Positions 16,355-53,928 of a DNA stretch of 64,000 bases are shown in pieces. The stretch's first letter is position 1; each line of letters begins with the position of its first letter. A program made the translations under genes and the position numbers. The stretch is from Bolinopsis microptera (Eukaryota > Ctenophora > Tentaculata > Lobata > Bolinopsidae): positions 9,190,411 through 9,254,410 of the forward strand of contig NC_087073.1 in assembly GCF_026151205.1 (NCBI RefSeq), in the 5' to 3' direction. Below the pieces are notes generated by a model. That model saw only the letters and a program-made list of their open reading frames with translations. It had not been told where the DNA came from and did not search any database.

Positions 16355-16738
16355 TTACTGATCTTCTTTCTCGAACAATACATGTGCTTTTTTCCTTCCA
16401 GGACCTTCTCTTTTCACCAGACTTTCAAATCCGGCGGTCTCCATATTATCTTCTACTTCGGCTGAAATAATCAATCTTTCAGAATTAAGATTGATTTATG
16501 ATTAAAAAATTATTGCTCCAAAACGTTTACAAACAGTCCGACACTCATGCTGAGATGCAGGGCTAATTTCACTCAAGATACAAAATTTCTAAAAATATTT
16601 GAAAAAATGCAAACCTTCCAATTCGTTGTCGAAGAGAACGAAGGCTCTGTCCTTGCCCTTGCCTTTCTTTTTCTGACCATCTGCATAACTGATCAAAACT
16701 ACGGTGAATAGAAGTACAGTCAACAACAGCTTCATCAT
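16355..16738 (-). CDS. small secreted peptide precursor, two exons, 76 aa
   Basis: I recognise no named family. Exon 1 (16738-16615) and exon 2 (16461-16355) are joined by a 153-bp GT/AG intron with matching phase 1. The product has 76 residues. A strong signal peptide, MMKLLLTVLLFTVVLISYADG, leaves a mature N-terminus beginning with Gln and then a lysine-rich run (QKKKGKGKDR). Two similar segments, RAFVLFDNE near residue 31 and KAHVLFEKE near 65, suggest an internal duplication. A Lys-Arg site in ESLVKREGPG could be a prohormone cleavage point. There are no cysteines. A TATAAAAG box lies about 56 bp upstream of the ATG on the same strand. The gene model is well supported by signal peptide, intron, phase and promoter. 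A peptide-hormone or neuropeptide role is inference; a matrix or defence peptide is also possible. Confidence 0.75.
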
Positions 16739-16793
16739 TTTGTGAATGCACAGAAAGATTTTTAAAAACTAAATTCCTCGTTGAAGCATTCCC

Positions 16794-16801: not shown

Positions 16802-17480
16802 GATCTTTTAGGGTGGTCTGAGACTATGCAGTGCTCCATTAACTCATAAAGCAAGCCTTTGTTTCATGCTTTGAGATTTAAATATCTTAATTGTTTTATC
16901 ATACATCAATAGGCTATGATGAGAAGAAGGCTATGACTTATGAGTATGTCCATTGTCCCTTCGCGTTGTGGGATCGATTCCTTTATTCCCAGTAAGTGAT
17001 GGTGCACATTTTGCACAAATTTGGATGCAAATGATTGAAATGGTGCAGTGCAGATGGTGCTTAAATGTTTCTTTGGAAACGTTTGATTCCAGCAATGAAG
17101 AAATATTATGTTACTATTTCTATGTTTAAAACCACTAATAGATTATTAGTGGCCCTCTGTTTACCAATAACCACCGGTCAGGTTTGCATTAAACTTTAAA
17201 GGCAGCGCTCAGTTTTGCTCTCAAATTAGAATACATAATAAATAATCTTTAAAATGCACAACTCTTAAATCTCACTTTTCTCCACTTCAAAAAACCCATT
17301 AAATCCTTATTCCTTCCCCTTGAAACCCCATGTTTTCTGGGGATCTGCACTAGAATTAAACAGCTAAATGTTATTAATGATAATCTTAACCATACAATCG
17401 TCACACTCAGCACATGTAATTCTACAAAAAACAGGAGAGCGCTAGCAATGTAAAAATGACGGATCAAATAAGGCGGTGCG
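16802..17480. other. divergent intergenic region between the peptide gene and the C16orf89-like gene
   Basis: The two genes point away from each other, so this 0.68 kb probably holds both promoters. No further motif was recognised with confidence. A minus-strand frame at 17249-17467 lacks support. Confidence 0.4.
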
Positions 17481-25904: not shown

Positions 25905-26867
25905 CTAGGATCTAGGATTTTTAGCGATTCCAACTTTAGAACCATTTATTCTCTCCAGGAAGCCCGAAATAAAATGTCCAGTTTCTATGACACTATCGAT
26001 ATCAACACCAGTGTCACAACCATTGTCATGTAACATGTATAGCAAATCTTCTGTGGCAACATTTCCACTAGCTCCTTGAGCATAAGGACATCCTCCCAAT
26101 CCAGAAACACTGCTATCAAAAACTCGAATACCATGATCAAGTCCGACATAAACATTTGCAACGGCTTGCCCATAAGTATCGTGCATGTGTAATGCTAAGT
26201 TTTCCACTGGTAAATGTGGCAGTATCGCTTGCAATAGTTCTTTGATTTTTCCTGGAGTACCCACTCCGATTGTATCCCCTAAACTGATTTCAGAACAGCC
26301 CATTTCTAACAGTTTTTGAGAAACTTTAGCAACGCTTCCATGATCAACATGACCTTGATATGGACATCCTGCAATGCAAGACACATAACCACGAATAGCA
26401 ATGCCATTTTCTTTTGCCAATTCTATAGTGGGAGCAAATCGCTCAAAGCTTTCTTCAATTGAGCAGTTGATATTTTTCTTGCAGAAAGCTTCAGATGCTG
26501 CTGTGAAAATTCCTATTTCAGTAATACCACAAGTCAAAGCACTCTCCAGTCCCTTCAAGTTGGGTACAAGTACAGGGTACACACAATCAGGGTTCCGAGA
26601 TATTCTTGACATAACTTCTTTACCATCTGCTAGCTGAGGGACCCACTTTGGAGAGACGAAACTAGTAGACTCTATAGACTTGAGTCCACTGAGAGACAGT
26701 TTATCTATAAGCTGCACCTTTATCTCGGTTGGGACAATACTCTTAACATTCTGTAAGCCATCACGAGGTCCAACTTCAACGATCTTGACAAAGTCTGAGA
26801 GAAACCTTGAAAGGGTATGCTGGGTTCTAGTTGGTCTGGATTGTAAGAGTTTCTTTATTACCCGCAT
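25905..26867 (-). CDS. HMGCL: hydroxymethylglutaryl-CoA lyase, mitochondrial
   Basis: Cleaves HMG-CoA to acetoacetate and acetyl-CoA, the last step of leucine breakdown and ketogenesis. A single uninterrupted 320-residue frame is close to the human length of 325. The Arg/Lys-rich N-terminus (MRVIKKLLQSRPTRTQH) looks like a mitochondrial presequence. Key features of the DRE-TIM barrel are VEVGPRDGLQN (catalytic Arg-Asp, residues 35-36), metal-binding LHMHDTYGQ, and the active-site loop GLGGCPYAQGASGN. The C-terminus, KNPRS, lacks the peroxisomal -CKL seen in vertebrates. Coding introns are absent, whereas neighbouring genes are split. AG (CCATTAG) lies 5 bp before the ATG. The 464 bp upstream to the next gene show nothing else. 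The enzyme should be functional. Confidence 0.95.
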   Translation of the reverse strand: MRVIKKLLQSRPTRTQHTLSRFLSDFVKIVEVGPRDGLQNVKSIVPTEIKVQLIDKLSLSGLKSIESTSFVSPKWVPQLADGKEVMSRISRNPDCVYPVLVPNLKGLESALTCGITEIGIFTAASEAFCKKNINCSIEESFERFAPTIELAKENGIAIRGYVSCIAGCPYQGHVDHGSVAKVSQKLLEMGCSEISLGDTIGVGTPGKIKELLQAILPHLPVENLALHMHDTYGQAVANVYVGLDHGIRVFDSSVSGLGGCPYAQGASGNVATEDLLYMLHDNGCDTGVDIDSVIETGHFISGFLERINGSKVGIAKNPRS

Positions 26868-27331
26868 TGACTCCTAATGGAAATTTGAGAATGTGATGAT
26901 TTGAATTTGAAGTAAAAAATTGGAAGTAAAAACAGATTAATAAAATATGATATGATTCTGTAATAGCTGGTTAAATAATTTCACATCGATTCAACAAAAC
27001 CATACTGATAAGAGCGCTATTTCGAAATTTAATTATTTGTTATTTTTAAATCCATTACATTCAAATTGGACAATGGAAATTGAAAATAGATAATCACAGT
27101 AAAATTAAAAAACAAATTATAAAGTTATTGCTTTCAAGCATATAAATTAAAAACAACCTACATATATCTTTGATATTAAAGTATCTAATTAAAGGATACA
27201 TAAATCTTTAATTTAATCACTTGATGTAATCACATAAAGTAGGAGTTGTATGCATTACATCCAATATACATACTAATAATTGCAGTTATTAATTTCACAT
27301 AACTTAATTTTAGGAATCTCTCAACTGAAAT

Positions 27332-28096
27332 CTAAAATCTGACCGGAATTCCACCATCCATTTTGACAGTTTCTCCAGTTATATAGCTGGCATCATCAGA
27401 AACTAAAAAGGCAACAGCTCCCGCACATTCATCTGGTTTTCCTACCCTCCGCATTGGTACATTATTAAGGGTCTTTTTCAAAATTTCTGGATTGCTTGTA
27501 AGAGCAGAACTGAAATCGGTTTCAATTATACCAGGAGCTATACAGTTTACTCTGACATTAGCGGACGCAAGCTCCACGGATAAAGCTTTTGTGAGGGACA
27601 TTAAAGCTGCTTTACTAACAGAATAGGCTCCAATAAAGGGCATGGGACAGAATCCAGAAACCGAAGATACAAAAACAATGTTTCCATTACCAGATTGAGC
27701 TAAAAATGGAGTGAACTTTGCAGCAAGGAGTGCACTGCATGTCACATTGTTGTAGAAAATTTTACCCCATGTTTTCTCATCACACATATTGACAGGTCCA
27801 AAGTGGGGGTTGGTTCCAACATTACTAACAAGAATGTCCATTTTGCCATACTTTTCATTGACATGCTTAGCTAGGTTTTCTCTGTCTTCTGGTTCTGATA
27901 CATTACAAACAACTCCAGATACATCAAGTCCTTCATCCAAACACAGACTAACTGCTTTCTGAACATTCTCATCTTTTCTACTTGATATCACTACACTTGC
28001 TCCTTCATAAGCAAGACGTTTAGCAATTGAGAATCCTATTCCAGCAGAGGATCCTGTAACAACAGCAACTTTATTCACAAGCCTGGAACAAGCCAT
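27332..28096 (-). CDS. DHRS4-like: DHRS4-like short-chain dehydrogenase/reductase
   Basis: NADP(H)-dependent SDR. The vertebrate family reduces retinal and other carbonyls, often in peroxisomes. The start is taken at ATG 28096, giving 254 residues; a GTG precedes it in frame. The Rossmann motif TGSSAGIG begins near residue 14. ILVSNVGTNPHFG gives the NAG-type structural motif. The catalytic Ser is in VFVSSVSGF and the YxxxK pair in GAYSVSKAAL. VNCIAPGIIETDF and DDASYITGETVKMDGG close the fold, as in DHRS4. The C-terminus is PVRF rather than the peroxisomal SRL, so location may differ. The coding region is intronless, like the adjacent HMG-CoA lyase. A TTCTTGTAG acceptor-like string ends 3 bp before the ATG. 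DHRS2/4 subfamily is likely; exact orthology is untested. Confidence 0.9.
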   Translation of the reverse strand: MACSRLVNKVAVVTGSSAGIGFSIAKRLAYEGASVVISSRKDENVQKAVSLCLDEGLDVSGVVCNVSEPEDRENLAKHVNEKYGKMDILVSNVGTNPHFGPVNMCDEKTWGKIFYNNVTCSALLAAKFTPFLAQSGNGNIVFVSSVSGFCPMPFIGAYSVSKAALMSLTKALSVELASANVRVNCIAPGIIETDFSSALTSNPEILKKTLNNVPMRRVGKPDECAGAVAFLVSDDASYITGETVKMDGGIPVRF

Positions 28097-29409
28097 CACC
28101 TACAAGAATTATTCTACAAAGAGTTGAGTACTATAACATCCAAATAATAATTAAAGTTTTACAAACAGATTTTTATATGAATATTGAACTTGCTACCACA
28201 GCTCCACTTGTTTTATATAATGAACCTGATAAATGATAATAGTACTAAGCAGGAGTAACATGAAAAGCATTTGATTCTTTTGACTAGAAACACAAATTGT
28301 AATGTATCTGTGAGTTGATAAAATGCTAAGAGTATTTTGAGAGGAAAGTAAAGTAAAATTTATGACATCACATCATCACAACATTAACTATTTGTGAATT
28401 ATTATCAAATACAATATTTTAAAAAAGGCACAAGATACTGTTTCAGCTTGCAAGATGATGTCAACCCTTCCAGATCGTTGCTCTGCAAATTAACAGAGCA
28501 ACGATCTAGTCAGGTCCTACTTCGATGCGAAGTAAGACTGATAGTTTGCGCGGCGCGTCGAAGCGGATAAGTCCTCCAATGTTTCAGCATGTATATATTA
28601 TAAAAACACTACAAATACACCGGATTAGCAGGTAGATAAGTGAGGAATGTTCAAGAACTTATGGCAAGGGTCATGGTCAGTCAATTAACAGAAACATCCG
28701 CACGGTGGATAATTAACTTCTCGTTCAGAATGCTGCTGCTAAAGCTGTAGTAGGACTTTACTTGTTGCGCAATGTGTTACTGGGCTGCGACGCTCATCCA
28801 ATTATGCTTCTCGTTAGATCGGCGAGATGCGCTACTGGGCCTCGCCGAGCTGCGAAGAATTGACATCGTCAATTAAGACTTTACAAACATGATCATCTAG
28901 GAGATACTCTGAAAGACCTTTATTGGCTGCCTATCAGTTACATAATTTTGAAAACTGGCCACGGGCCTAAATATTACATATCAATCAATTACAATTCATT
29001 GACATTACCAATATTAAAAACTATCGAAAATATACAAGAAAGTATTCTCAGTTACATAATTAAGTTATAAGTACAAGTTGTTGCTCCTTATTCATAAGTG
29101 TTGATAGTATGGGACCAGATTATTTAAATACTTTTTCCTTAAACTTGTATACTGGAAAATGCATGTAACACATTAATGTTTATTTAGTGGCCGTTCACAT
29201 ATTACGTAATTAGCTATAGGGGGTGGGGGTTAGTGTATTAAGTTTAATACCGTTGCCTGGTTTAGAATATAAATGTGGGTTGCTTTGTCAGGTTTTATTG
29301 TGTCCTGAAGTCTGAACTCTTTTTGTGGCACACCTGTGCATTTTAAGTTTTTGTGCCACTATAATATACAAATTTAAATCATTTATTAGTATTATTGATT
29401 ATTAAACTG
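28097..29409. other. repeat-bearing intergenic region upstream of the DHRS4-like gene
   Basis: No gene was recognised. The first part probably holds the promoter of the minus-strand reductase gene. A dispersed GC-rich repeat lies at 28446-28572. A related block at about 28760-28870 (ACTGGGC, GCTTCTCG, ATCGGCGAGATGCG) matches the interior of the TIR element near 8525-8640. Confidence 0.45.
28446..28572. repeat. dispersed short repeat, ATCGTTGCTCTGC family
   Basis: The unit has a hairpin built on AGATCGTTGCTCTGC...GCAGAGCAACGATC, followed by TAGTTTGCGCGGCGCGTCGA. Related copies lie at 61549-61663 and 62210-62310. It is probably a MITE family without coding capacity. Confidence 0.65.
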
Positions 29410-32935: not shown

Positions 32936-35900
32936 TATATAGTAGCTATGATTATGATTATGATTACAGCTTTTAAAAATGTTTGAATTATGGCTCAATT
33001 CGTCAGCCAATAAATCTTTATAATGCCATAATATGTGATTCTCGCCACAATGGAGGAGAACCATATCTTATTTGACACGTGACGATGATCAAACTCCAGC
33101 ATTGGCCAACCAATACCTGGGATCACTGTACGTGCATGAAAAACAAGCATGGACAACCTTCCTTCATTATTCCGACCTCTTTTAGAACAACCATTTCATT
33201 GTGTAGCATTTATATTCCAAATTTTTCCAAAACTAAGCATACGTTGCAACCATAAAACCTTTCAGTTTTTTAGACGTACATTAGGAAAACTTCGCATAAT
33301 ATCATGAATTGTTTCAGATTGGGAGTTTAAGGACGCGACTCTAGTTCGACAACATGATAACGGAACTGTTGCTCCATCTGGAGATGAGGGACTGTTGTAT
33401 GTTACAATCGTTAGCAAAAAAACTGGAGAGGAGAAGACAGGGACAGTATGTGGCGGTTATCATTTAAACACGCAGACAGTTCGTCTATTCTGTCAGAACA
33501 TTGGATACCCTGTTAAAAAGGGAGAGTTTTGGAGTAGACCGAGCTACAAATTTGTTTCCAGGTAAGTTTCTAGTTAAGTTACTATGATTATCAGAAATTT
33601 GAGAAAAGCTTGAACAATTTGATTTTTAAATGCATCAAGTCTGATAGATTTACTTAATCAATGTTACAGGAGTTGGTTAGATTTGAACGATGTACCTTTT
33701 GTAATGAATTTTGTGGAGTGTGACGAAGGTGATAAGAACATCCCAGACTGTATTGCTAGCTTCAGCGATTTCCTCGACTGTGATCACAGATGGGATATCT
33801 GGCTGCGATGCAAAGGTACACCGTAGTATTATTCATGGAAATAATCATGGCATAATTATCGGACTTTTTTTGAACGGAGCCTTATAGGAACCCTACAGCG
33901 TTAATTTTAATGTCTGTTCAAATAAAGTCCGTTCAAATAAAGTCCGTCCAAGTCAAAGTCCGTGTAACAGTATCATTAGTATTACGCCCTCTCAAGGGTG
34001 TCAGCTTTAAAATGTATTGTTGAGAAATATTGTAGCTAGCTTTTATAATATCATTCAGAACCAGTATGCTACATTGAAGAACATGGCGGGTTCCTCAAGT
34101 ACAAATGCCCTCGCCCAGGAGACAACAAAGAGAAGTTCAAGTGTCACAACACGGAAGAGTTTTACTATACATCAATTTTTATGTCATTTGTTGAGCAATT
34201 GTTATGCTCTGAGGACCCCTACTACTATCAGGCTTGTGACACGAGGATGGCTGGTTTCATGATAAGTAGTAATGATAATATATTATGTGAGAATTATTTG
34301 TGTCGGATCAGAGCGAGTAAAAGATTTGAAATAATTTCACTTACAAAGCTAAGAAAATACGGATATCTTTGTGATGGTCAACAACACTGTGAGAATAACA
34401 TGGATGAACAGAATTGTGCAGATAAAACAACATTACGCAGTGGACTAGAAGTAGATCCTCGTTTTATATGTAATGATATATGTGAAACTAGTACCTGTGA
34501 GGACGAAGCGTATTGTAATGGTCTGACTTATGGAATGTATTGTAAATTAGGTAATAAATTAAATCTCGACTATTACATGCCTCTTGATTATATATGTGAT
34601 AGTATAAATGATTGTAATGATGGAGAGGATGAGTTCAACTGCACAACTACTGGGCAAACAAAGATCACTTGTAGATCGCAATGAGTGTTAACTTTTCATG
34701 ATAGACCGATCACAACTTCACCAAGTGCGGAGTACTAAGCATTAATCAACATCAGAATAAGTATTGTGCAGACGAAGATCTAAAGAAATATCAAACAAAT
34801 TGTACAGACCAAGCTAGGGAAGGAGGATCGTGCACTATAAATGGATACAAGTCAACTATTTCTAAATATGTGATTTGCTACAAAGACAAGAATGTTCAAA
34901 TTTGCGATGATCACCTAGAAAGTCAATGTCAGGACATCTCAAAATCATGTGTAAATATACACAAACACGTGATATGTGATAACTTTCCGGATTGCAATGA
35001 CAGATCTGATGAAACACTCCCAATATGTCGTATTCAAACTGAAAACACCTGCCAAAGAAAAGTTGGAAAAGCAACAGCAGGCGAATTGACGTTACCTTTA
35101 ACCTGGCTAGGCGACGGTATAGAGGACTGTGTAAATGGTATTGATGAACTGGAAATCTGGCCAACATGTGGAAAAGGTAAGTCCCGAAGATTAGTAACCA
35201 GCAATAAAACGTGCGAAAACGTTCTCCTGTGCCCCTCAGGAGATCCTGGCTACGTCGAATTGAACGATCTATGTGACGGAATTGAAACATGTGGTAATGA
35301 GAAACAAATGTGTTCATTATCCCAACATTCCTCGACAATCTTCACTTCGGTCTCAAGCAAAGGAAATGGCTTCGTCAAGCAGCTATCATTTTGCATGAAA
35401 GGTCTTAGGAGTATCAAAAATCTCAAAAAGGATAACTGCACACAAGAGCGTTTTATCTTTCCAGATCATCACTTTTTTGGAGTGGACACAAAAACAGAGT
35501 TGCATCTCCCTGAAAGTACACAGAATTGTGAGCATATGTTCGGGGAACAATATGTCTTTACTAGCTGCACAGAAAAATGTAAAAACTCAGCTTGCCCACT
35601 GAAGAACCTGCCAAAATACGATGCCTGTCCCAATCAATACCCTAATAGGATAGGAACCCTTGCTAACAACAAATATCTGGTTTTCTTCACCAAATCACGA
35701 GAAAACTTATTCACGAATAGCTATTTCGTGTGCGATAATAATGTCACATGCATAAATTATTCTCAAGTATGTGACTTGATTGATAATTGCGGCGACCGAT
35801 CGGATGAGTTGGCATGTACCAATGGTTTCACATGCGACTCTGCTCGTATCATTACAAAAGATAAAACATGTAATGGGAAATTCGATTGCTTCGACATGTC

Positions 35901-37386
35901 TGACGAATGTAATCTGGAGTGCTCAAAACAGATACTGGAAAATGTAGCTCTGAAAGTAAGCTCATTGATCATAGGGGGGCTAGCTGTTGTGGCAAACCTG
36001 ATCGTAATGGTAAAGAACGTAGGATCTCTAAAACACTGCAGAACATCTGTAGCCTTGGCTAACAAATCCCTAATAATCTTGATATCTTTGGGAGACTTCT
36101 TAGTAGGTTGCTATTTATTGGTGATAGTAATATATGACGCGGTTATTTTCAAGAAAGACTACTGTAAAAGTCAAATCGAATGGATGACTAGCTTTCAGTG
36201 CTCCACGATAGGTGTTGTCAGTACCATAGGATCCCAGATATCTTTGTTTGCTATGGCGGGATTGAGCACCATTAGGCTAAATGGAATACAGGGTTCACTC
36301 AGAGTCCCAGGCGAAGTCAACATTGTAAAATCTCTTAAGGTTGCACTAGGGGTTCTTAGCATCTTCATGACATCTGCAGCCATTGCTATCACACCAATAA
36401 TTAGTTCATTTGAGAACTTTTTTGTAAATGGACACAAATTTGCTGATGAGCTTAAACTTTTCATCGGAACCCAAAACAAACAAGAAGTCCTCGCAGTCCT
36501 TGAAGCTTACTATGGACGGATGAAAGGAAAAAACCTGAGTTGGGAGACGATCCTAAAGATGTACCGTGGCATGTTCTCCCATGATGTAGGATATCCAGAC
36601 CACACCGATACGGTCACAAAGCTTGATTTCTACGGAAATGACGGTGTGTGCCTGTTTAAGTATTTTGTCGACAACAACGACCCCCAGAGAAACTTCGTTT
36701 GGGCGATACTCGCAGTGAACTTTGTCTGCTTCCTATTCATTTCAATATCCTACATTCTGATAGCTATTGTCTCCAGAGAGTCCTCAAAAGGTCTTACTAA
36801 TTCGCAGAACAATCGACAAATTAGTGACCGAAACCGAAAAATGAGTAGAAGGATAACAATCATCATCACTACTGACTTCTGTTGTTGGGTGCCTTTCATC
36901 GTTATCTGTGTGTTGCACTCCCTAGAAGTTCTTGATGCAACTCCATGGTACGGCATATTCTCAATGATCATCCTGCCAATAAATTCTGTGATAAACCCAT
37001 TCCTTTATGACGATTTTGTCACAGAATCACTCAGAGCACCTTTTCGATCACTCTCAACCAGAATTGCCAATTCAGCCATTCACCAAACTATCATCGCACG
37101 TCTCAGTACTGCTCAACCTGAAGTTTTCAAGATGGAGCAGATAGAAGTTCGAAGAGGAGAACCTGGATGCACTACTTGTAGTGTCCTCGGTACAAAACAT
37201 AAAGAAGCTGACGGACCGAAGACAACAGCAGATCTAGATATTCGAGTTACCTGTCTTCAGAACCAAGCTAGAGATAAATTAGGAGCAGAATCATCTTCAG
37301 CAATAGTTACAGGCGAAGACGGATGTGCTTGGTTGAACAGAACAGATGGTGACGTGATAGTTGAGGTACATGATCCATCTGTGCAG

Positions 37387-37870
37387 CAGAGACAAAATCC
37401 TGAAGTTATCTCTCAAACCATCAACAAAGATCCAGAGATTCACAAAGGTACAAATAAGGGTGGGGTCTTTGAGTCGGAAGTAACACAATACGTTATTGCG
37501 GAGGTGCACCTTTATGAAGGCCAGCATGAGCAGAGACAAGATCCCGAATTTATCTCTCAAACCATCAACAAAGATCCAGAGATTCACAAAGGTACAAATA
37601 AGGGTGGGGTCTTTGAGTCGGAAGTAACACAATACGTTATTGCGGAGGTGCACCTTTATGAAGGCCAGCATGAGCAGAGACAAAATCCTGAAGTTTTCTC
37701 TCAAACCATCAACAAAGATCCAGAGATTCACAAAGGTACAAATAAGGGTGGGGTTTTAGAGTCGGAAGTAACACAAGACGTTATTGCCGAGGTGCACCTT
37801 CAGGAAGGGCAGCATGAGCAGAGACAAGATCCCGAATTTATCATTCAAACTATCAATACAGATGCAGAGG
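37387..37870 (+). repeat. 144-bp in-frame coding repeat, receptor A C-terminus
   Basis: Units start at 37387, 37531, 37675 and 37819 (last one partial), exactly 144 bp (48 codons) apart. Each starts QRQ[ND]PE and includes INKDPEIHKGTNKGG and AEVHL.EGQHE. Adjacent units are almost identical, implying recent unequal exchange. Confidence 0.95.
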
Positions 37871-38043
37871 TCCCAAAAGATATCAGCGATGTCGAAGGTT
37901 TAGAGCTGCGACTAACGGAAGATTTATTGCTAATGTGCATTCTGAGGAGGTGCAACACAGAAACGAATCTGAAATTTGCCCTCAAATCATGGACAAAGAA
38001 TCTGAGATTTAAGATCTTCATCAGAGTTAACCTCGTGGTATAG

Positions 38044-39568
38044 TTTCGAACTTTTGTGGATATTATATTTGTGTATATTGATAGCTTGAGATGAGTTTTT
38101 CGTTTATGTTAACTGAAACTGTAAGAAAAGTAAAATGTATGAACTTATGCAGTGAAACCTCTTTATATTGGGCTTATAGGGAGAAACGAAAATTGCACGG
38201 TACAGCAAAAACTTGGTATAGAGAGTTCCATGATCCTAATCCTTAACCTCTCAAATAAGATATCAAGTCTAGTTTTGCAATGGAATACAATTCGATATGC
38301 AGTATGCACTCACATCATCAATAATAGCGATGTGAGCTCTCACGAATCACGAATTCTCCAAACACAGGCTTCAGATCGGGGAAAGAAATGAGCACGGTGT
38401 AATTGTATAGAGGTTCGCGGTATAGACATTTTTACTGTGATATATTTTTGGTTCACTGTACATGTAAGTGCTTCACTGCACGTATAAGTGCGATATTCGA
38501 TTACAAATAGATATGAGTTCTGATGTCAAGACATTCGGAAAAAGCTCAATGGGAATTTATGGAATACCGTTTAAGAAATATGCTTAAAAAATTAGTAATT
38601 TGAATTCCATATAATTGATTATTTGTTATTCAATTATTTTATTGTGTAGACGATTTTATAAATCTATTGAAGATTTAGATATTATTTTTCTTCATAAAAG
38701 ATAAACTGATGTAAATGATTTTATTTGACTTGATTGATGGATCGCTTTAATGAGCAATAAAAATCAAGTTCTTATTTTAAGTTAGCTGATTATTCCAATC
38801 CTCGTAATAGTTTAAAGCTCATTTCCAAGTAGTATTGGTACGCTTGTTTGAATATCATAGAAACTGTAACTATCGTGATATGCAGATGTATAATATTGTG
38901 TATGATATGAATTATATTTGATTATTTTCTTAATTTTATTCCTCCCTATTCCGCTACTTTTGAAAAATTCAGTGTTTTATTTTGTTACATGACGGCTTTT
39001 TCCTTACCTGATTTGGTTTTAATTCCGAAATTTTCCTAACTTGGGTCCTGGAAGTGGATCAGACGATCAGTGCTGTACAAAACTAAGTTTTTTTAGTTTC
39101 TTCTCTTTTTCACCACATTATTCTGATTATCTTTTTAACTCCGGGATAATTTGAAACTGAGAATAACACGACGGAGGACAATTCAGTGGAACCTTTTTGA
39201 AAATGGTGGACTATTCTGCGGAATCATATGGCACTAAGATATAATACTAAAACGAATATGATTCTTCCAGATCGCTCGTTCTAATTATAGAACTTTTCAC
39301 ATAATAAGCACTCGAATCCCTATTATTTTTATTAAACTATCAGCAGTACACTAGTTTACACGTATTAACAAGTAGATTATTTAAGGGGGAGGTTTGTGTC
39401 ACAGTGCCTGCAAGCACAACCGTCAGTCCTTACACCCCCTTTACTTTTTGCTTTTTATTAAGACTCAAGTCGTTCAGCAGGTTTACATTTATCCAAATTA
39501 TTCTAATTCAATGTTAAAGATGACAGAAATCAACGATAATCATGTTAAGATTCTTATGAAGTGTGTGT
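38044..39568. other. 3' flank of receptor copy A, duplicated in copy B
   Basis: Non-coding. It aligns nearly base for base with 53929-55511 and includes a MITE with CAGTGAAACCTC ends (38155-38440). Similarity stops at about 39568, where this copy runs into unrelated sequence rather than the transporter fragment that follows copy B. Confidence 0.75.
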
Positions 39569-42835: not shown

Positions 42836-45800
42836 TTAGTTGTATCACGACTTCGAGTCGATTTATGTTTTTTTGCGCTGAGCTGCTAAGCAACACCTGG
42901 GTTCAGGGTGGAGAAAATTAATTTTGATATGAGCAGATCCTATGCTACAGTGCTCTGTTCAGCTTGGTTCGTGATTACTGAATTTTGTTAATTCGGGCCA
43001 CCCTGTATTTTCCCTATCACACCAGCTTTAATTTTGAGGCGTCAGCTCTGCCGATTAAATCTAGGCGGTACAGTGTACTTGTACCCATAATTTAAGCAAC
43101 TCCCGTTTACTATGAATTATAAGAGTGTACTATCACCCAGGAGTTGCCAGATTATTGGGCACTCTCTTCTGTTTTTGATGCTTTGGTACAGCTAACTTTC
43201 CTTATACTAAGGATTAGACAAACTATGGACATTGTGCTCAGTCATATCGACGCCACGAACTTGTGAGAGCTGGATCTTGGTCTTTTTTCAAAATCTTTAT
43301 ACTCGTGCTACGCAAGGCGTTGTGAATTGTTAAAATGTACGTTTTGCTATTGATATTATTCCAACTCGTTTCTAGCTCTCCAACAGATCAATCAGTGACA
43401 TCTGCTCGCAGAACAGAACAGCCATCTAGCTTTCCAACAGATCAATCAGTGACATCTGCTCGCAGAACAGAACAGCCAACGACCTCTACTTCAGTGACTT
43501 CTATGAAATACCATACTAGTACTACTTCTCCTGAAATTGGTATACCTTATCGGACTTTATTTGAGCGGACATTAATTGGACACTGGAGGCCCTTGCGTTC
43601 ATTTGAATGTCCGTTCAAATAAATTCTGATAAGGTAGTTAAACTAAATACTGATCATGAATGCCTTCGAGCGTTCATTTTAATGTCCGTTAAAAATTATG
43701 TCCGTTCACGTAATGTCCGGTTAAATAACATCCGATAAGGATTATATAGTAGCTATGATTATGATTATGATTACAGCTTTAAAAATGTTTTAATTACGGC
43801 TCAATTTGTCAGCAAATGCCCAATAAATCTTTATAATGCCATATGTGATTCTCGCCACAATGGAGGAGAACCATATCTTATTTGACACGTGACGATGATC
43901 AAACTCCAGTTTTGGCCAACCAATACAGCAATACCTGGGATCACTGTACAGTGTACGTGCATAAAAAACAAGCATGGACAACCTTCCAAAATTATTCCGA
44001 CCTCTTTTAGAACAAACACTTCATTGTGTAGCATTTATATTCCAAATTACTCCAAAAATAAGCAGTCCAAAACTAAGCATACGTTGCAACCATAAAACCT
44101 TTCAGTTTTTTTAAACGTACATTAGGAAAACTTCGCATAATCATGAATTGTTTCAGATTGGGAGTTTAAAGACACGACTCTAGTTCGACAACATGATAAC
44201 GGAACTGTAACTCTGTCCGGAGATGAGGGACTGTTGTATGTTACACTCGTTAACAAACAAACTGGAGAGGAGAAGAGTGAGACAGTAAATGACGGTTATT
44301 TTGAAATGGATATCAACGCACAGATAGTTCGTCTATTCTGTCAGAACATTGGATACCCTGTTAAAGAGGGAGATTATGGGAGTAGACCGAGCTACAAATA
44401 TGTTTCAAAGTAAGGTTTTAGTTAAGTTACTATGATTATCAGATATTTGAGGAAAGCTTGAACGATTTGATTTTGAAATGCATCAAGTCTGATAGATTTA
44501 CTTAATCATTAAATCAATCATCAATGTTACAGGAGTTGGTTAGATTTGAACGATGTGCCTAGTATAATGCTTTTTGTGGAGTGTGACGAAGGTGATAAGA
44601 ACATCTCGGACTGTAGAGCTTCTAGCCTCAGAAAACCCTCCGACTATGATCACAGAAATGATATCTGGCTGCAATGCAAAGGTACATCGTAGTAATATTC
44701 ATGAAAATAATCATGGCATAATTATCGGACTTTATTTGAACGGAGCCCTATAGGATCTCAATATAGCGTACATTTCAATGTCCGTTCAAATAAAGTCTGT
44801 TCAAATAAAGTCCGTTCAAATAAAGTCCGTCCAAGTCAAAGTCCGTGTAACAGTATTATTGACATTAGTATTACACCCTCTCAAGGGTGTCAGCTTCAAA
44901 ATGTATTGTTGAAAAATATTGTAACTAGCTTTTATAATATCATTCAGAACCAGTATGCTACATTGAAGAACATGGCGGGTTCCTCAAATACAAATGCCCT
45001 CGCCCAGGAGAAGACGAAGAAAAGTTCAAGTGTCACAACACGGAGGAGTTTTACTATACATCTAGTATTGTGTCCGTTTTTCAGCAATCGTTATGCTCTG
45101 AGGACCCCTACTACTATCAGGCTTGTGACACGAGGATGTCTGGTTTCATGATAAGTAGTAGTGATAATATATTATGTGAGAATTATTTGTGTCGGAGAGC
45201 GGGTGAAAGATTTGAAATAATGTCACTTACAAAGCTAAGAAAATACGGATATCTTTGTGATGGTCAACAACACTGTGAGGATAACATGGATGAACAGAAT
45301 TGTGCAGATAAAACAACATTACGCAGTGGACTAGAAGTAGATCCTCGTTTTATATGTCATGATATATGTGAAACTATTTCCTGTGAGGACGAAGCGAATT
45401 GTAATGGTCTGACTTATGGAATGTATTGTAAATACACATATAATAAACTAAATCTCAACCATTACCTACCTCCTGGTTATATATGTGACAAACATAATGA
45501 TTGTGATGATAGAGAGGATGAGTTCAACTGCACAACTACTGAGCAAACAAAGAGCACCTGTAGACAACGCAATAGTTTTGATTTTCGTGATAGACCGATC
45601 CACAACTTCACCAAGTGCGGAGTACTACTACTAAGCACTTATCAGAATAGGTATTGTGCAGACGAAGATCTAAAGAAATATCAAACAAATTGTACAGACC
45701 AAGCTAGGGAAGGAGGATCGTGCACTATAAATGGATACAAGTCAACTATTTCTAAATATATGATTTGCTACAAAGACAAGAATGTTCAAATTTGCGATGA

Positions 45801-47312
45801 TCACCTAGAAAGTCAATGTCAGGACATCTCAAAATCATGTGTCAATATGCACAAACACGTGATGTGTGATAACTTTCCGGATTGCAATGACAGATCTGAT
45901 GAAACACACCCAATATGTCGTATCCAAACTGAAAACACCTGCCAAAGAAAAGTTGGAAAAGCAGCAGCAGCCGAATTGACGTTACCTTTAACCTGGCTAG
46001 GCGACGGTATAGAGGACTGTGTAAATGGTATTGATGAACTGGAAATCTGGCCAACATGTGGAAAAGGTAAGTCCCGAAGATTAGTAACCAGCAATAAAAC
46101 GTGCGAAAACGTTCTCCTGTGCCCCTTAGGAGATCCTGGCTACGTCGAATTAAACGATCTATGTGACGGAATTGAAACATGTGGTAATGAGAAACAAATG
46201 TGTTCATTATCCCAACATTCCTCGAAAATCTTCACTTCGGTCTCAAGCAAAGGAAATGGCTTCGTCAAGCAGCTATCATTTTGCATGAAAGGTCTTAGGA
46301 GTATCAAAAATCTCAAAAAGGATAACTGCACACAAGAGCGTTGTATCTTTCCAGATCATCACTTTTTTGGAGTGGACACGAAAACAGAGTTGCATCTCCC
46401 TGAAAGTACACAGAATTGTGAGCATATGTTCGGGGAACAATATGTCTTTACTAGCTGCACAGAAAAATGTAAAAACTCAGCTTGCCCACTGAAGAACCTG
46501 CCAAAATACGATGCCTGTCCCAATCAATACCCTAATAGGATAGGAACCCTTGCTAACAACAAATATCTGGTTTTCTTCACCAAATCACGAGAAAACTTAT
46601 TCACGAATAGTTATTTCGTGTGCGATAATAATGTCACATGAAATGAAATGAAATGAAATGAGGTATTTATATCCCGCTCATATGATTAACCAACAACACA
46701 AGGAAGGTGGTTAACCATGTCAGAGCGGCTGACTGTGAGTGATGTGAGCAAATGTGTAAAAATGAACAAGAGTATAACGTAATATTAATATAAGACCAAG
46801 ACAAAATTAAAACATCTTTTATTTTAAACCACACTAAACTAAAAAGAAGCAGAGACCATACAATACATGTAGGTATAATAAAGGTTAGTACAGTGACAAA
46901 GAAAGGTAGATAACTTAGACATAAAATGGAGTGCGGTAAGAGATAAAAGCCAAGGTGTCTTGCAAAATGAAGACAGATGGAAAGAAAAAACATCAAAACT
47001 GATTATATAAATGGTTCTTTAACATTCGCTTGAAGCAGTTGGTATCAGTAATACATCTCAACATCAGTGGAAGAGAGTTCCATGCAATCGGTGCATGGCT
47101 TGAGAAACGTCTGTCATCAACTTTGGACTTTTTATTCTTTGGTACCTTGAGCATGAGATGGTCACCAGGTCTCTTCGACCTGGTCATGGTCATGGTGTTT
47201 GAGAGTTCTTTATCCGCTATATCCAAATCCAGTAGTGCTTTGAGGTAATCAGGTGCAGTACCGTGAACTGATTTGTGGGTTAATAGACAAACTTTAAAGA
47301 ATATTCGTTGGT

Positions 47313-50300
47313 CTATAGGGAGTATGTGGGCCTTCTTATAGCTTTATAGAAGGGAACCAAGTCCGTGGTTCTGTCTTCTATGTTATAGATGAAACGAACT
47401 GCCCCATTAAGGGTGGATCTAAGTTTGTTTAGTCTGGTCTTGGGTAGATTCATGTATAGAGAATTACAGTAATCTAACTTAGATATAACCAGTTGTTTCA
47501 CCAACATCAATTTAATGCCTTCATCCAGGTAACGACCAATAGTTCTTAGGTTCATCATTGTCCAGCTACATTTCCTTTTGACATTATTGATCTGTCTTTC
47601 CATATTTAAAGTTTCATCAAATTTGACACCCAGACTCTTCCAGCTGTCTCCTTTGCACTCCGTAGGTAGAATTTCAGTGCTTCCAAATTGCAGTCTGACA
47701 CTGAGTTCACACTTTTTTAGAATATGGCTCTTTCCTAACACCAATAGTTCTGTCTTACTTTCATTCAGTTTCATGTAATTCTTCACCATCCATGCTTTTA
47801 TCTCTGCGAGACATTTGTTTGTTCTGTCTTGGACATCAGTGAACTGTACCACACGGTTTGGTTGAAATGAGATGTACAGTTGAGAATCATCTGCATAGAG
47901 CTGTATATCAAGACCATATTTGGCCGCAATTTTCTGGAGAGCTTTGATATAGAGGATGAAAAGAATAGGCCCCAAGAGTGATCCCTGGGGAACTCCAAAC
48001 AAAAGCTCCAAGAAAGAAGAAAGAGTATCATCAATCTTGACACAGAAATGTCTTTTCTCAAGGTAGGACTTTATCCATTGCAGCGCACTTCCAGTAATTC
48101 CATAGTCTTTCATAAGCTTTTCCAATAAGACTGTGTGGTCAATGGTATCAAATGCTGCACTTAAGTCAAGAAGTACAACTATGACAACATTCCCAGCTTC
48201 AATTTCTTTGTTAAGATCATCACACATTCTTACAAGTAATATTTCACAGCTGTGATTAGGGCGGTATCCAGATTGGACTTCTGAGTAAAGGCTATGATTC
48301 GTAAGATGGACATTGAGCTGGTTTAGTACAATTCTCTCTAGGATCTTAGAGAAGGCAGAGAGGTTAGAGACTGGTCGATAGTTACTGAGAATATCAACAT
48401 CAGCATTTTCCTTTTTCAAAGTCGGCTTAATGACAGCTTTCTTCATATCCGAGGGAAAAACTCCAGTCTTCAAGGATGAGTTCAATACGTGGAGTAAAAA
48501 AGGCGTTAGTTCATCAACACAGTTTTTTAAGAGAAATGCTGGGATCGGATCCAAGCAGCAGAACTTGTTGGACATCTTTGATACCAGGTCTTTGAGTTCA
48601 TCAGCTGTTATCTCAGAGAAATTACCAAAGATGCAGTCTTTATCAACAACATGATCTTTGTCTTTGTCTTTGTCTTTGTCTTTGTCTCTGTCTTTGTCTT
48701 TGTCTTTGTCTTTGTCTTTGTCTTTGTCTTTGTCTTTGTCTTTGTCTTTGTCTTTGTCTTTGTCTTTGTCTTTGTCTTTGTCTTTGTCTTTGTCTTTGTC
48801 TTTGTCTTTGTCTTTGTCTTTGTCTTTGTCTTTGTCTTTGTCTTTGTCTTTGTCTTTGTCTTTGTCTTTGTCTTTGTCTTTGTCTTTGTCTTTGTCTTTG
48901 TCTTTGTCTTTGTCTTTGTCTTTGTCTTTGTCTTTGTCTTTGTCTTTGTCTTTGTCTTTGTCTTTGTCTTTGTCTTTGTCTTTGTCTTTGTCTTTGTCTT
49001 TGTCTTTGTCTTTGTCTTTGTCTTTGTCTTTGTCTTTGTCTTTGTCTTTGTCTTTGTCTTTGTCTTTGTCTTTGTCTTTGTCTTTGTCTTTGTCTTTGTC
49101 TTTGTCTTTGTCTTTGTCTTTGTCTTTGTCTTTGTCTTTGTCTTTGTCTTTGTCAGAATCTTTTCCTTCCTTCTCAATGGCTTGTCTGATGGTCGCAACC
49201 TTTTCAGCGAAGAAATCTTTGAAATCTTCTGACAGTTTTACAGGATCCTTGTAATTTGGAAGGTTTTGGGTGTCATTTCCTAAAAGCCTGTTGACTTTTC
49301 TGTACAACGCTTTAGTATCCCCCGAAGAGGACCTAAGAGAGGTTTTGTGGTGAGCACATCTTTTGACAAACTCTAGTCGGGAAAACTCATCTCTTAGCTT
49401 AACATAATCAGATCTCAGGTACTCAGATCTTGTACTGTCTATATAATCTACTTTATCTTTTCTCCACGCACGTTCAGCAGTTCTTCTCTTTCGTCTGAGA
49501 ATACGAAGTTCCAGGTCTAACCAGGGCATTGGCTTCTTAGTAATCCTCTTTTTTATGTAGGGACAGTGTTTATCCATTAATTGAGTAAGCACAGTGTTGT
49601 AAAGGACGACATCATCATTTGGGGACATGTCTTTAGGGAAGTTTGTCAGTTTTGAAATTAAAATATCTTCTTTAAACTGTTCTGTATCAATTAAATTAAA
49701 GTTTCTGTAGTTCATGAATTTAACGTCTTCTTTGGTCTTTGTCTTGATGTCTGCATCGAAGAGGACAAGGAAGTGGTCAGATTTGGTTCTTGAGGGACGG
49801 ATTTCAAATGAAGTCAGTTTTTCCTTGAAGGATCTATTAGTCACTACAAGATCTAGGGTTCCACCTTGGTCATGGGTTGGCTCAAGAGGAACGTGTTGAT
49901 AAAGGTCATACTCCTCCAGGAGTTGGTAGAGTTTCTTTGGGTAGTGTTCTTCAGGTTTTTCCATGTGAAAGTTGAAATCTCCAGCGATGATAGGAAAACC
50001 AGGTTTGACTGTGAGGTCTTTAAGGTAGTCTTCGAATTCTTCTAGAAAGGCACACTCCGTGTACCGAGCCTTCTTGGTATAAGGAGGCCGATACAAGTTC
50101 ACAAGTCTCACAATATCTTGTTGAGATTGTAGCAGTGATTCCATCACTTGGAAGGATTTGTACTTCGTGACTTTACTATTACATTTTAATTGGAGCACAT
50201 CACGAAATAGCATAGCTATACCTCCTCCTCCTCTATGTTTTCGTGGATCCGAAAGTATATTCCAACCGAGTTCTTTGATCTCCATTATCTTAGCTGTGTT

Positions 50301-50387
50301 TCCATCACGAAAGAAAGTTTCTTGTACAAAACAGATGTCACAGTCAACTTCTTGAAGATGCTCTAAGACTCCGACTGTTTTGTTCAC
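47313..50387 (-). CDS. LINE ORF2: EEP endonuclease + reverse transcriptase with a (DK)n linker
   Basis: 1024 residues from the first possible start; the true start is probably slightly upstream. The N-terminal endonuclease has VQETFF, LVNLYRPP, IIAGDFNFH, LDLVVTNR and KSDHFLVL. A linker follows with about 83 Asp-Lys pairs, encoded by the hexanucleotide repeat at 48655-49154. The reverse transcriptase then shows NYRPVSNL, LLDLSAAFDTIDH, GVPQGSLLGPILFILY and the catalytic YADDSQLY. No RNase H is present, as in CR1/L2/Rex-like elements. The (DK)n tract lies between domains, which may be why the frame tolerates it. Confidence 0.92.
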   Translation of the reverse strand: MNKTVGVLEHLQEVDCDICFVQETFFRDGNTAKIMEIKELGWNILSDPRKHRGGGGIAMLFRDVLQLKCNSKVTKYKSFQVMESLLQSQQDIVRLVNLYRPPYTKKARYTECAFLEEFEDYLKDLTVKPGFPIIAGDFNFHMEKPEEHYPKKLYQLLEEYDLYQHVPLEPTHDQGGTLDLVVTNRSFKEKLTSFEIRPSRTKSDHFLVLFDADIKTKTKEDVKFMNYRNFNLIDTEQFKEDILISKLTNFPKDMSPNDDVVLYNTVLTQLMDKHCPYIKKRITKKPMPWLDLELRILRRKRRTAERAWRKDKVDYIDSTRSEYLRSDYVKLRDEFSRLEFVKRCAHHKTSLRSSSGDTKALYRKVNRLLGNDTQNLPNYKDPVKLSEDFKDFFAEKVATIRQAIEKEGKDSDKDKDKDKDKDKDKDKDKDKDKDKDKDKDKDKDKDKDKDKDKDKDKDKDKDKDKDKDKDKDKDKDKDKDKDKDKDKDKDKDKDKDKDKDKDKDKDKDKDKDKDKDKDKDKDKDKDKDKDKDKDKDKDKDKDKDKDKDKDKDKDKDKDKDKDKDKDRDKDKDKDKDKDHVVDKDCIFGNFSEITADELKDLVSKMSNKFCCLDPIPAFLLKNCVDELTPFLLHVLNSSLKTGVFPSDMKKAVIKPTLKKENADVDILSNYRPVSNLSAFSKILERIVLNQLNVHLTNHSLYSEVQSGYRPNHSCEILLVRMCDDLNKEIEAGNVVIVVLLDLSAAFDTIDHTVLLEKLMKDYGITGSALQWIKSYLEKRHFCVKIDDTLSSFLELLFGVPQGSLLGPILFILYIKALQKIAAKYGLDIQLYADDSQLYISFQPNRVVQFTDVQDRTNKCLAEIKAWMVKNYMKLNESKTELLVLGKSHILKKCELSVRLQFGSTEILPTECKGDSWKSLGVKFDETLNMERQINNVKRKCSWTMMNLRTIGRYLDEGIKLMLVKQLVISKLDYCNSLYMNLPKTRLNKLRSTLNGAVRFIYNIEDRTTDLVPFYKAIRRPTYSL
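48655..49154. repeat. (TTTGTC)n / (GACAAA)n hexanucleotide expansion, ~83 units
   Basis: A run of about 500 bp. The only unit change seen is a TCTCTG near 48684, which gives Arg for Lys on the coding strand. Because the unit is six bases, all frames stay open, producing long artefactual frames on both strands. The purity points to very recent expansion or an assembly-sensitive length. Confidence 0.97.
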
Positions 50388-50416
50388 TAAGGATCTTACA
50401 TTGAACGTTCCAATCC

Positions 50417-51673
50417 TTAAACTCTTCCTAGGCGTAGTTTGGTCTCCTTTGTCTTCTGTACGTACCAGTTTTTTGAATTCTCACATCCTGCTGTCCTATT
50501 CATGATTCCAATCCGTTCTCTTACATACGAGGGACATAGGTTGTCAGAGGCTTTGTGGGTCTTTGCTGAGTTCTTCTCAGAGTGTTTACTACTTTTGGCG
50601 CAGTTAGAGCACTTTATCTTTGTGACAATATTTTCACTCTTGCTTCTACAGTCTTTTGACTTGTGGTTTCCTGCACAGAAGAAACATGTTGGGTCTTTAT
50701 CTTTGGCTTTACAGTACATGGAGTTGGCCATGTGACCAAATTCCTGGCAATGATAACATTGGATGACATGAATTCGGTCTGTAACATGGTGTTCCCTAAG
50801 GTCAATATGAACATAGTCTCTGTTTTGTCTGATTGACTCACGTACTGCTGCATTGACACGGATGACAGCCGTTTTCTCTTTATCATCGAAGAAAACCACT
50901 TTAACCGCATCGTCTTTTTCAGATGAGGACTTCAGTATTTCATTCTTTTCCAAAAGTTTCTCTAGCAGTGCCTCCTTGTTTGTGATATCAGAAGGAATAT
51001 TCCGAATAGACAGTTTAGGGTCCAATTTCTTTCCTGGTTCGGACTTTGACGATACCTTGTATTTCTCTTGACTTTTAAATACTGTTTCAGCTTTCTTAAG
51101 TTGATCCTTGGTAACAAACTTGAAGGTTGCAGTATTTCCGGACACTGTATAGTTCTTCACTGGGTTGACTTTAAGGGAACCTTTCATTTCCTTTTCCTCA
51201 TCTTTAGTAATGGGTTCTTCCGTTTGAGTCTTCTCCACTGTGAGTGTGTGTTTTTCTGCAAGCTTAGTTTCTTCTTGTGTTTTCTTTTCTTTGGGCAGTG
51301 TTGCTACCACTGTATTCAATAAATCTGGTAGAATTGTAGGGAGTACTTCTGCTAGTACCTCTTTGAGCTGTGTCTTTATAATTTCCTTGAAATCTGGTGA
51401 TTCCTGTTTAGTAGTAGTTGTGGCTTGTTTTGTTCCTAAAACTGTTTGTGTTAGTTGAAGAGCATTCTTGGAGAAAGTGTACAAATCCTGGATAACGACA
51501 AACATATCTTTTTTGGCAAATCCAGGTAGAACGTCCTCAAATAGCGCTGATTGAACAGTTATCTTAATCTTTTTATCATTCTCATCTTTCTTACCTTTAA
51601 AAGACATTGCCGTGCAGTTTATCTTTTTCAGTTGTTCCTTCATCTTTTCCAAGTCCAACTCCATCTTTTCCAT
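50417..51673 (-). CDS. LINE ORF1, nucleic-acid-binding protein with zinc knuckles
   Basis: 418 residues. The Lys/Glu-rich N-terminal part is probably helical. It is followed by an RRM-like stretch (DPKLSIRNIPSDITNKEAL ... VKVVFF). The C-terminal Cys/His knuckles are CYHCQEFGHMANSMYC, CFFCAGNHKSKDC and CSNCAKSSKH. This is typical ORF1p of Jockey/CR1-type LINEs, which packages the RNA. It ends just before ORF2. The ORF2 frame is already open upstream, with a KSLRIGTFNVRSL-type EEP start overlapping the ORF1 end, so the two frames probably overlap slightly. Confidence 0.88.
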   Translation of the reverse strand: MEKMELDLEKMKEQLKKINCTAMSFKGKKDENDKKIKITVQSALFEDVLPGFAKKDMFVVIQDLYTFSKNALQLTQTVLGTKQATTTTKQESPDFKEIIKTQLKEVLAEVLPTILPDLLNTVVATLPKEKKTQEETKLAEKHTLTVEKTQTEEPITKDEEKEMKGSLKVNPVKNYTVSGNTATFKFVTKDQLKKAETVFKSQEKYKVSSKSEPGKKLDPKLSIRNIPSDITNKEALLEKLLEKNEILKSSSEKDDAVKVVFFDDKEKTAVIRVNAAVRESIRQNRDYVHIDLREHHVTDRIHVIQCYHCQEFGHMANSMYCKAKDKDPTCFFCAGNHKSKDCRSKSENIVTKIKCSNCAKSSKHSEKNSAKTHKASDNLCPSYVRERIGIMNRTAGCENSKNWYVQKTKETKLRLGRV

Positions 51674-53447
51674 GTTATAAACCCTGCTAAAAGATCAAGG
51701 ACCGAAGGGACAAATGACAAATTGTCAGTTCTTAAAAAAACTAAACAACTGTTTTGTAATAATTCGATACCTCAAATTATTTATTATATAGTAGTGTTGA
51801 AAGTATTAAAACTGCATGCATAAATTATTCTCAAGTATGTGACTTGATTGATAATTGTGGCGACCGATCGGATGAGTTGGCATGTACCAATGGTTTCACA
51901 TGCGACTCTGCTCGTATCATTACAAAAGATAAAACATGTAATGGGAAATTCGATTGCTTCGACATGTCTGACGAATGTAATCTGGAGTGCTCAAAACAGA
52001 TACTGGAAAATGTAGCTCTGAAAGTAAGCTCATTGATCATAGGGGGGCTAGCTGTTGTGGCAAACCTGATCGTAATGGTAAAGAACGTAGGATCTCTAAA
52101 ACACTGCAGAACATCTGTAGCCTTGGCTAACAAATCCCTAATAATCTTGATATCTTTGGGAGACTTCTTAGTAGGTTGCTATTTATTGGTGATAGTAATA
52201 TATGATGCGGTTATTTTCAAGAAAGACTACTGTAAAAGTCAAATCGAATGGATGACTAGCTTTCAGTGCTCCACGATAGGTGTTGTCAGTACCATAGGAT
52301 CCCAGATATCTTTGTTTGCTATGGCGGGATTGAGCACCATTAGGCTAAATGGAATACAGGGTTCACTCAGAGTCCCAGGTGAAGTCAACATTGTAAAATC
52401 TCTTAAGGTTGCACTAGGGGTTCTTAGCATCTTCATGACATCTGCAGCCATTGCTATTACACCAATAATTAGTTCATTTGAGAACTTTTTTGTAAATGGA
52501 CTCAAATTTGCTGATGAGCTTAAACTTTTCATCGGAACCCAAAACAAACAAGAAGTCCTCGCAGTCCTTGAAGCTTACTATGGACGGATGAAAGGAAAAA
52601 ACCTGAGTTGGGAGACGATCCTAAAGATGTACCGTGGCATGTTCTCCCATGATGTAGGATATCCAGACCACACCGATACGGTCACAAAGCTTGATTTCTA
52701 CGGAAATGACGGTGTGTGCCAGTTTAAGTATTTTTTCGACAACAACGACCCCCAGAGAAACTTCGTTTGGGCGATACTCGCAGTGAACTTTGTCTGCTTC
52801 CTATTCATTTCAATATCCTACATTCTGATAGCTATTGTCTCCAGAGAGTCCTCAAAAGGTCTTACTAATTCGCAGAACAATCGACAAATTAGTGACCGAA
52901 ACCGAAAAATTAGTAGAAGGATAACAATCATCATCACTACTGACTTCTGTTGTTGGGTGCCTTTCATCGTTATCTGTGTGTTGCACTCCCTAGAAGTTCT
53001 TGATGCAACTCCATGGTACGGCATATTCTCAATGATCATCCTGCCAATAAATTCTGTGATAAACCCATTCCTTTATGACAATTTTGTCACAGAATCACTC
53101 AGTGCACCTTTTCGATCACTCTCAGCCAGAATTGCCAACTCAGCCATTCACCAAACTATCATCGCACGTTTCAGTACTGCTCAACCTGAAGTTATCGAGA
53201 TGGAGCAGATAGAAGTTCGAAGAGGAGAACCTGGATGCTCTACTGGTAGTGTCCTCGGTACAAAGCATAAAGAAGCTGACGGACCGAAAACAACAGCAGA
53301 TCTAGATATTCGAGTTTCTTGTCTCCAGAACCAAGCTAGAGATAAAGGAGCAGAATCATCTTCAGCAATAGTTACAGGCGAGGACGGATGTGCTTGGTTG
53401 AACAGAACAGATGGTGACGTGATAGTTGAGGTACATGATCCATCTGT

Positions 53448-53790
53448 AAGACAAAATCCTGAAGTTATCTCTCAAACCATCAACAAAGATCCAGAGATTC
53501 ACAAAGGTACAAATAAGGGTGGGGTTTTAGAGTCGGAAGTAACACAAGACGATATTGCCGAGGTGCACCTTCAGGAAGGGCAGCATGAGCAGAGACAAGA
53601 TCCCGAATTTATCTCTCAAACCATCAACAAAGATCCAGAGATTCACAAAGGTACAAATAAGGGTGGGGTTTTAGAGTCGGAAGTAACACAAGACGTTATT
53701 GCCGAGGTGCATCTTCAGGAAGGCCAGCATGAGCAGAGACTAGATCCCGAATTTATCATTCAAACTATCAATACAGATGCAGAGGTCTCA
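53448..53790 (+). repeat. 144-bp in-frame coding repeat, receptor B C-terminus
   Basis: The same unit as in copy A, with starts near 53448, 53592 and 53736 (last one partial). There is one full unit fewer than in copy A (two rather than three). Confidence 0.93.
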
Positions 53791-53928
53791 AAAGATATCA
53801 GCGATGTCGAAGGTTTAGAGCTGCGACTATCGGAAGACTTTATTGTTAATGTGCATTCTGAGGAGGTGCAACACAGAAACGAATATGAAATTTGCCCTCA
53901 AATCATGGACAAAGAATCTGAGATTTAA

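Follow-up and report, generated by a model that had tools for sequence, protein, structure and literature searches.

Generic two-copy prohormones with dibasic sites are built from a signal peptide, a spacer, a dibasic site and two related segments. In the ctenophore Bolinopsis mikado, the mature short peptides of 13 precursors have been detected by mass spectrometry (PMC9525235); in that survey, only C-terminally amidated peptides were kept, both basic and acidic residues are reported at cleavage sites, and the authors expect non-amidated peptides still to be discovered. A second point of reference is provided by the colloblast candidates of Mnemiopsis leidyi, which are enriched for signal peptides and over-represent ctenophore-specific genes (PMC6278862).

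The locus described here lies in a 64,000-base stretch of the Bolinopsis microptera genome, referred to below as the window (C2:9190411-9254410 of an assembly of 264,652,675 bases in 232 contigs). The product predicted from it is laid out as a secreted precursor carrying two related segments. Below, we compare it with two paralogues of the same genome and with the systems just mentioned.

A three-copy gene family and its promoter

An earlier note on this DNA had placed a two-exon gene on the minus strand, with a 76-residue, Cys-free frame split by a phase-matched 153-bp intron and preceded by a TATA box. These coordinates are correct (Table 1): read from the DNA, the coding sequence comprises 76 residues and ends in TAA, the joined exons translate into a product without cysteine, and the TATA box is present.

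Table 1. Features of the window copy, in window coordinates and in the order of transcription.
Feature	Position	Strand	Basis
Upstream promoter motif TGGAGCACTGCATAGTCTC, common to the three paralogues	16820..16838	-	pattern search and alignment
TATA box TATAAAAG, beginning 53 bp before the ATG	16784..16791	-	sequence and alignment
Exon 1, coding part: signal peptide and module 1, 41 codons plus 1 base	16615..16738	-	sequence, paralogue matches
Predicted signal peptide, residues 1-19 (cut after A19 or G21)	16682..16738	-	hydropathy
Module 1 KKKGKGKDRAFVLFDNE, residues 23-39	16622..16672	-	internal duplication; FVLFD invariant across the three paralogues
Intron, 153 bp, GT..AG, phase 1	16462..16614	-	sequence, comparison of copies
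Exon 2, coding part with stop: variable spacer, KR, module 2, C terminus	16355..16461	-	sequence, paralogue matches
Lys-Arg site, residues 58-59	16409..16414	-	invariant in all three copies (alignment)
Module 2 KREGPGRKKAHVLFEKE, residues 58-74, ending two residues before the C terminus	16364..16414	-	internal duplication

Searching the assembly with the window protein at an E limit of 10 gave six matches, corresponding to two exons each in the window, on contig C5 and on contig C7. The C5 paralogue (C5:7601066-7601425) is matched at E = 2.4e-10 in exon 1 and 1.5e-6 in exon 2, and the C7 paralogue (C7:2590012-2590474) at E = 1.1e-7 and 0.02, respectively. Both are complete frames of 73 residues with GT..AG introns (141 bp in C5 and 247 bp in C7) whose position and phase are those of the window copy, to which they are 79% (C5) and 60% (C7) identical at the protein level. 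The three copies are unlinked in the genome. Protein searches with different query proteins returned the same three loci and no further family member among the best-scoring candidates, a scope that weak matches could escape. Upstream of the C5 paralogue there is a tandem array with a unit of about 70 bp (L007:682-1317), whose end lies some 750 bp from the ATG.

The copies have diverged under constraint on the protein. Over all codons, dN/dS is 0.15 for C2-C5, 0.24 for C2-C7 and 0.21 for C5-C7, with dS values of 0.74, 1.02 and 0.83, respectively, and differences are in excess at third codon positions in each of the three pairs (p 1.2e-4 to 2.9e-3). When the exons are taken separately, five of the six tests give p < 0.05, exon 2 of C5-C7 being the exception (p = 0.33). 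Between copies, exon 1 is 77-85% and exon 2 65-76% identical at the DNA level; the intron, whose alignment has many gaps, reaches 53-57%. The exons, the frame, the intron phase and selection on the protein are thereby found in all three copies, and the two-exon gene suggested earlier is borne out by this conservation together with purifying selection. Judged from sequence comparison, the locus is a protein-coding gene of a three-member family. The splice donor of the window copy, GTTTGC, looks weak by eye and could be taken to speak for a chance reading of non-coding sequence; such a reading is scarcely credible and is effectively ruled out by the two paralogues with their open frames, same intron phase and selection, to which the unlinked positions and the common promoter may be added. 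Retroposed copies were also considered and rejected: because all three loci retain both the intron and the common promoter, they probably arose by duplication at the DNA level.

The alignment shows TATAAAA in 3/3 copies. Farther upstream, each copy has one exact match to TGGAGCACTGCATNGYCTC, and the 264.65-Mb assembly contains no other; allowing up to two mismatches brings the total to 11 places, compared with 7 for a reversed-pattern control. Identity between the copies is 66-86% over the 120 bp before the ATG, 41-57% over the next 111 bp and 34-45% farther out. When 191 bases of C5, running from the promoter through the 5' UTR to coding base 44, served as the query, no locus besides these three was recovered from the assembly among the best candidates, which were those scored.

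Predicted signal peptide, duplicated modules and dibasic site

Residues 4-16 have a mean Kyte-Doolittle hydropathy of 3.18-3.49 in the three copies, compared with 0.59 for the best 13-residue mean past residue 20. By hydropathy, then, each copy begins with the hydrophobic N terminus of a secreted precursor, which supports the signal peptide suggested earlier. Signal peptide cleavage follows the -3,-1 rule, and on this basis the cut site was judged by eye to lie after A19 or, equally, after G21. The N-terminal Gln that the earlier note had assigned to the mature product is present in the window copy; however, it is not conserved, both paralogues having Glu, and a cut after A19 is equally possible. 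The paralogues have one Cys, which falls within the predicted signal peptide.

Beyond the predicted signal peptide, a variable spacer separates module 1 from the invariant KR and module 2. The two modules, KKKGKGKDRAFVLFDNE and KREGPGRKKAHVLFEKE, align without gaps as a duplicated unit of about 17 residues, one per exon, each opening with two basic residues (KK or KR). This internal duplication is clear in the window copy: when the whole mature part is shuffled 2000 times, no shuffle reaches its ungapped repeat score. It is weaker in the paralogues, in which module 1 is two residues shorter: 144 (C5) and 45 (C7) of 2000 shuffles reach their own best ungapped scores. In a gapped test, for which the halves were chosen by eye, the scores of C2, C5 and C7 are reached by 0, 5 and 19 of 5000 shuffles, respectively. 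The two similar segments originally noticed thus reflect a real duplication, but they are only the ends of longer modules. The AxVLF motif by which they had been described has to be given up, the Ala being absent from both paralogues (RKFVLF; KPHVLF or KGHVLF), and alignment of the three copies gives [FH]VLF[DE]xE as the conserved core instead. The signal peptide and the VLF segments, whose conservation had been named as decisive for the gene, are conserved among these paralogues of one genome.

In each module, basic residues precede and acidic residues follow the short hydrophobic core. Such a polarity could serve head-to-tail assembly by charge and beta-strand pairing, in which case the product would be a peptide secreted for structure, mucus or adhesion, for instance by colloblasts or by gland cells of the epidermis. 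Conservation of the TATA promoter would fit a bulk product, and the enrichment of signal peptides among Mnemiopsis colloblast candidates (PMC6278862) points the same way. We nevertheless regard this function as rather unlikely: there are two repeats only, the mature part contains neither Cys nor a long low-complexity stretch, and assembly of this kind does not require an invariant KR.

The KR site recognized in the earlier note is indeed invariant in the three copies and lies beside a conserved segment. In all three pairs, divergence is highest in the spacer, with a dN of 0.20-0.57 that is based on just 12-13 spacer codons per pair; elsewhere, dN is 0.04-0.13 in module 1, 0.09-0.24 in the signal region and 0.11-0.23 in the part that starts at LVKR and reaches the C terminus. 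Such a distribution is precursor-like, and the repeated module and its dibasic starts speak for a precursor as well. The alignment, however, reports conservation only, and KR and the module residues could be kept for binding by a small secreted protein working in uncut form, as a carrier, inhibitor or co-factor, with KR unused for cleavage. This is in our view unlikely, given that the most divergent stretch directly precedes KR, as in cut precursors, and that the repeat units start at dibasic pairs. The real cut sites are uncertain, since there are many further basic residues, and KR could stay uncut.

The charge of the predicted products bears on another possibility, a host-defence (antimicrobial) peptide precursor, for which the small size, the apparent secretion and the basic clusters KKKGKG and GRKK might argue. 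Across the three copies, the two predicted products have a net charge of -2 to +1 and are therefore not cationic in the sense of a clearly net positive mature peptide; there is no Cys framework, and selection is purifying rather than diversifying. An antimicrobial role is accordingly improbable.

Database searches and other features of the window and genome

The window protein matches no Pfam-A family at E up to 10, and scanning the three members against Pfam-A gave a single weak match in one of them (DUF6169, E 0.21). Matches in the PDB are at chance level (E 1.3 and E 0.93), and ten peptide strings had no match in the main paper texts searched. The original impression that the product belongs to no known family fits these searches, in which nothing rises above chance level. 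The three genes would thus form a family of secreted peptide precursors for which no named relatives were found; the window gene may already sit in an annotation without a name. Rfam gave no match at the gathering score in the whole 64-kb window.

The window also contains two copies of a gene for an LDLa-repeat rhodopsin-type GPCR (33501-39000 and 44349-54930; Pfam assignment made on copy 1), whose main aligned pieces, within the compared stretch, share 92-97% identity. Copy 2 is broken at 46640-51815 by an element that, by eye, is LINE-like and has two long minus-strand frames; one of these frames includes a long run of KD dipeptides (48608-49237), where several frames are open on both strands. 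An HMG-CoA-lyase-like gene (25905-26873) and a short-chain dehydrogenase gene (27332-28099) each consist of one long uninterrupted frame.

Elsewhere in the genome, several iGluR matches lie in open frames of more than 900 aa. Because of these matches and the long uninterrupted frames of the two enzyme genes, intron-poor genes may be common in this genome. Lig_chan has 32 matches in the genome, from which five iGluR loci were taken. When two ligand-domain pieces, from two of these loci, were compared with the PDB, ML032222a scored 108-119 bits and 4zdm 85.9-86.6 bits, all others among the 60 matches listed for each staying below 60 bits; with a full 888-aa iGluR frame, kainate receptors came top and ML032222a lower. 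We take the ML032222a chains to be from Mnemiopsis and 4zdm to be from Pleurobrachia. The PDB holds few receptors from non-bilaterian animals, so these matches would not settle the phylum by themselves.

COX1, glycosyl hydrolase 6, GFP and the let-7 family were looked for as well; none of them gave a match, a result given no weight here in either direction. The B. mikado NPWamide peptide, used as a query, hits one place in the genome (E 0.09, 88% identical), where PGSDIKLAPGGGNPWGRK is followed directly by a stop (C13:11682746-11682793). This peptide is likely an orthologue of the B. mikado NPWa neuropeptide.

Proposed processing and comparison with described systems

We propose, with moderate confidence, that the window gene encodes a secreted precursor whose cleavage at KR gives two non-amidated peptides, related to each other, that act as extracellular signals. 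The hydrophobic N terminus would direct the product into the secretory pathway, and cleavage at the invariant KR, perhaps also at further basic sites, would yield a pair of peptides in which an [FH]VLF core is flanked by a basic head and an acidic tail, the variable stretch serving as the spacer that separates them. The short peptides made from precursors in another ctenophore, B. mikado (PMC9525235), are in keeping with this reading. Once released, the peptides would most likely work in the manner of prohormone or neuropeptide-precursor products. The main rivals to a signalling role are the self-assembling secreted peptide and, beside it, the uncut secreted protein.

The proposed peptides are described as non-amidated because of what follows the core: in the three copies, Gly comes after VLF in 0/6 modules, and D or E in 6/6. 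With no core followed by Gly, amidation directly after the core is impossible. The amide donor of an amidated ctenophore neuropeptide precursor is consequently not found at this position, and another mature end elsewhere is possible. More tentatively, the family may represent a ctenophore-restricted class of non-amidated signals ("VLF peptides"), with one module per exon in each precursor; we consider this a possibility worth naming rather than a probable one. If it is true, this early-branching animal group would have more peptides, and chemically different ones, than those catalogued in PMC9525235. A survey filtered for amidation, as described there, is not expected to report VLF peptides, since their cores are followed by D or E and never by Gly. 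A conserved family of secreted precursors with paired modules, for which no description was found, is in any case a concrete and testable addition.

Among the systems considered at the outset, the generic two-copy prohormones have the same layout as the window family, and no sequence relation to a named family was found. In Mnemiopsis leidyi, the secretory candidates of colloblasts and tentacles (PMC6278862) form a set enriched for signal peptides, and the window product, too, begins with a predicted one. A further comparison is with the amidated precursors of B. mikado (NPWa, VWYa, FGLa, RWFa, WTGa and others; PMC9525235), in which short peptides are cut from secreted precursors, as is proposed for the window family. 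The window family differs from these in that its VLF cores lack a Gly amide donor and in that a single module is present twice in each precursor, once in either exon.
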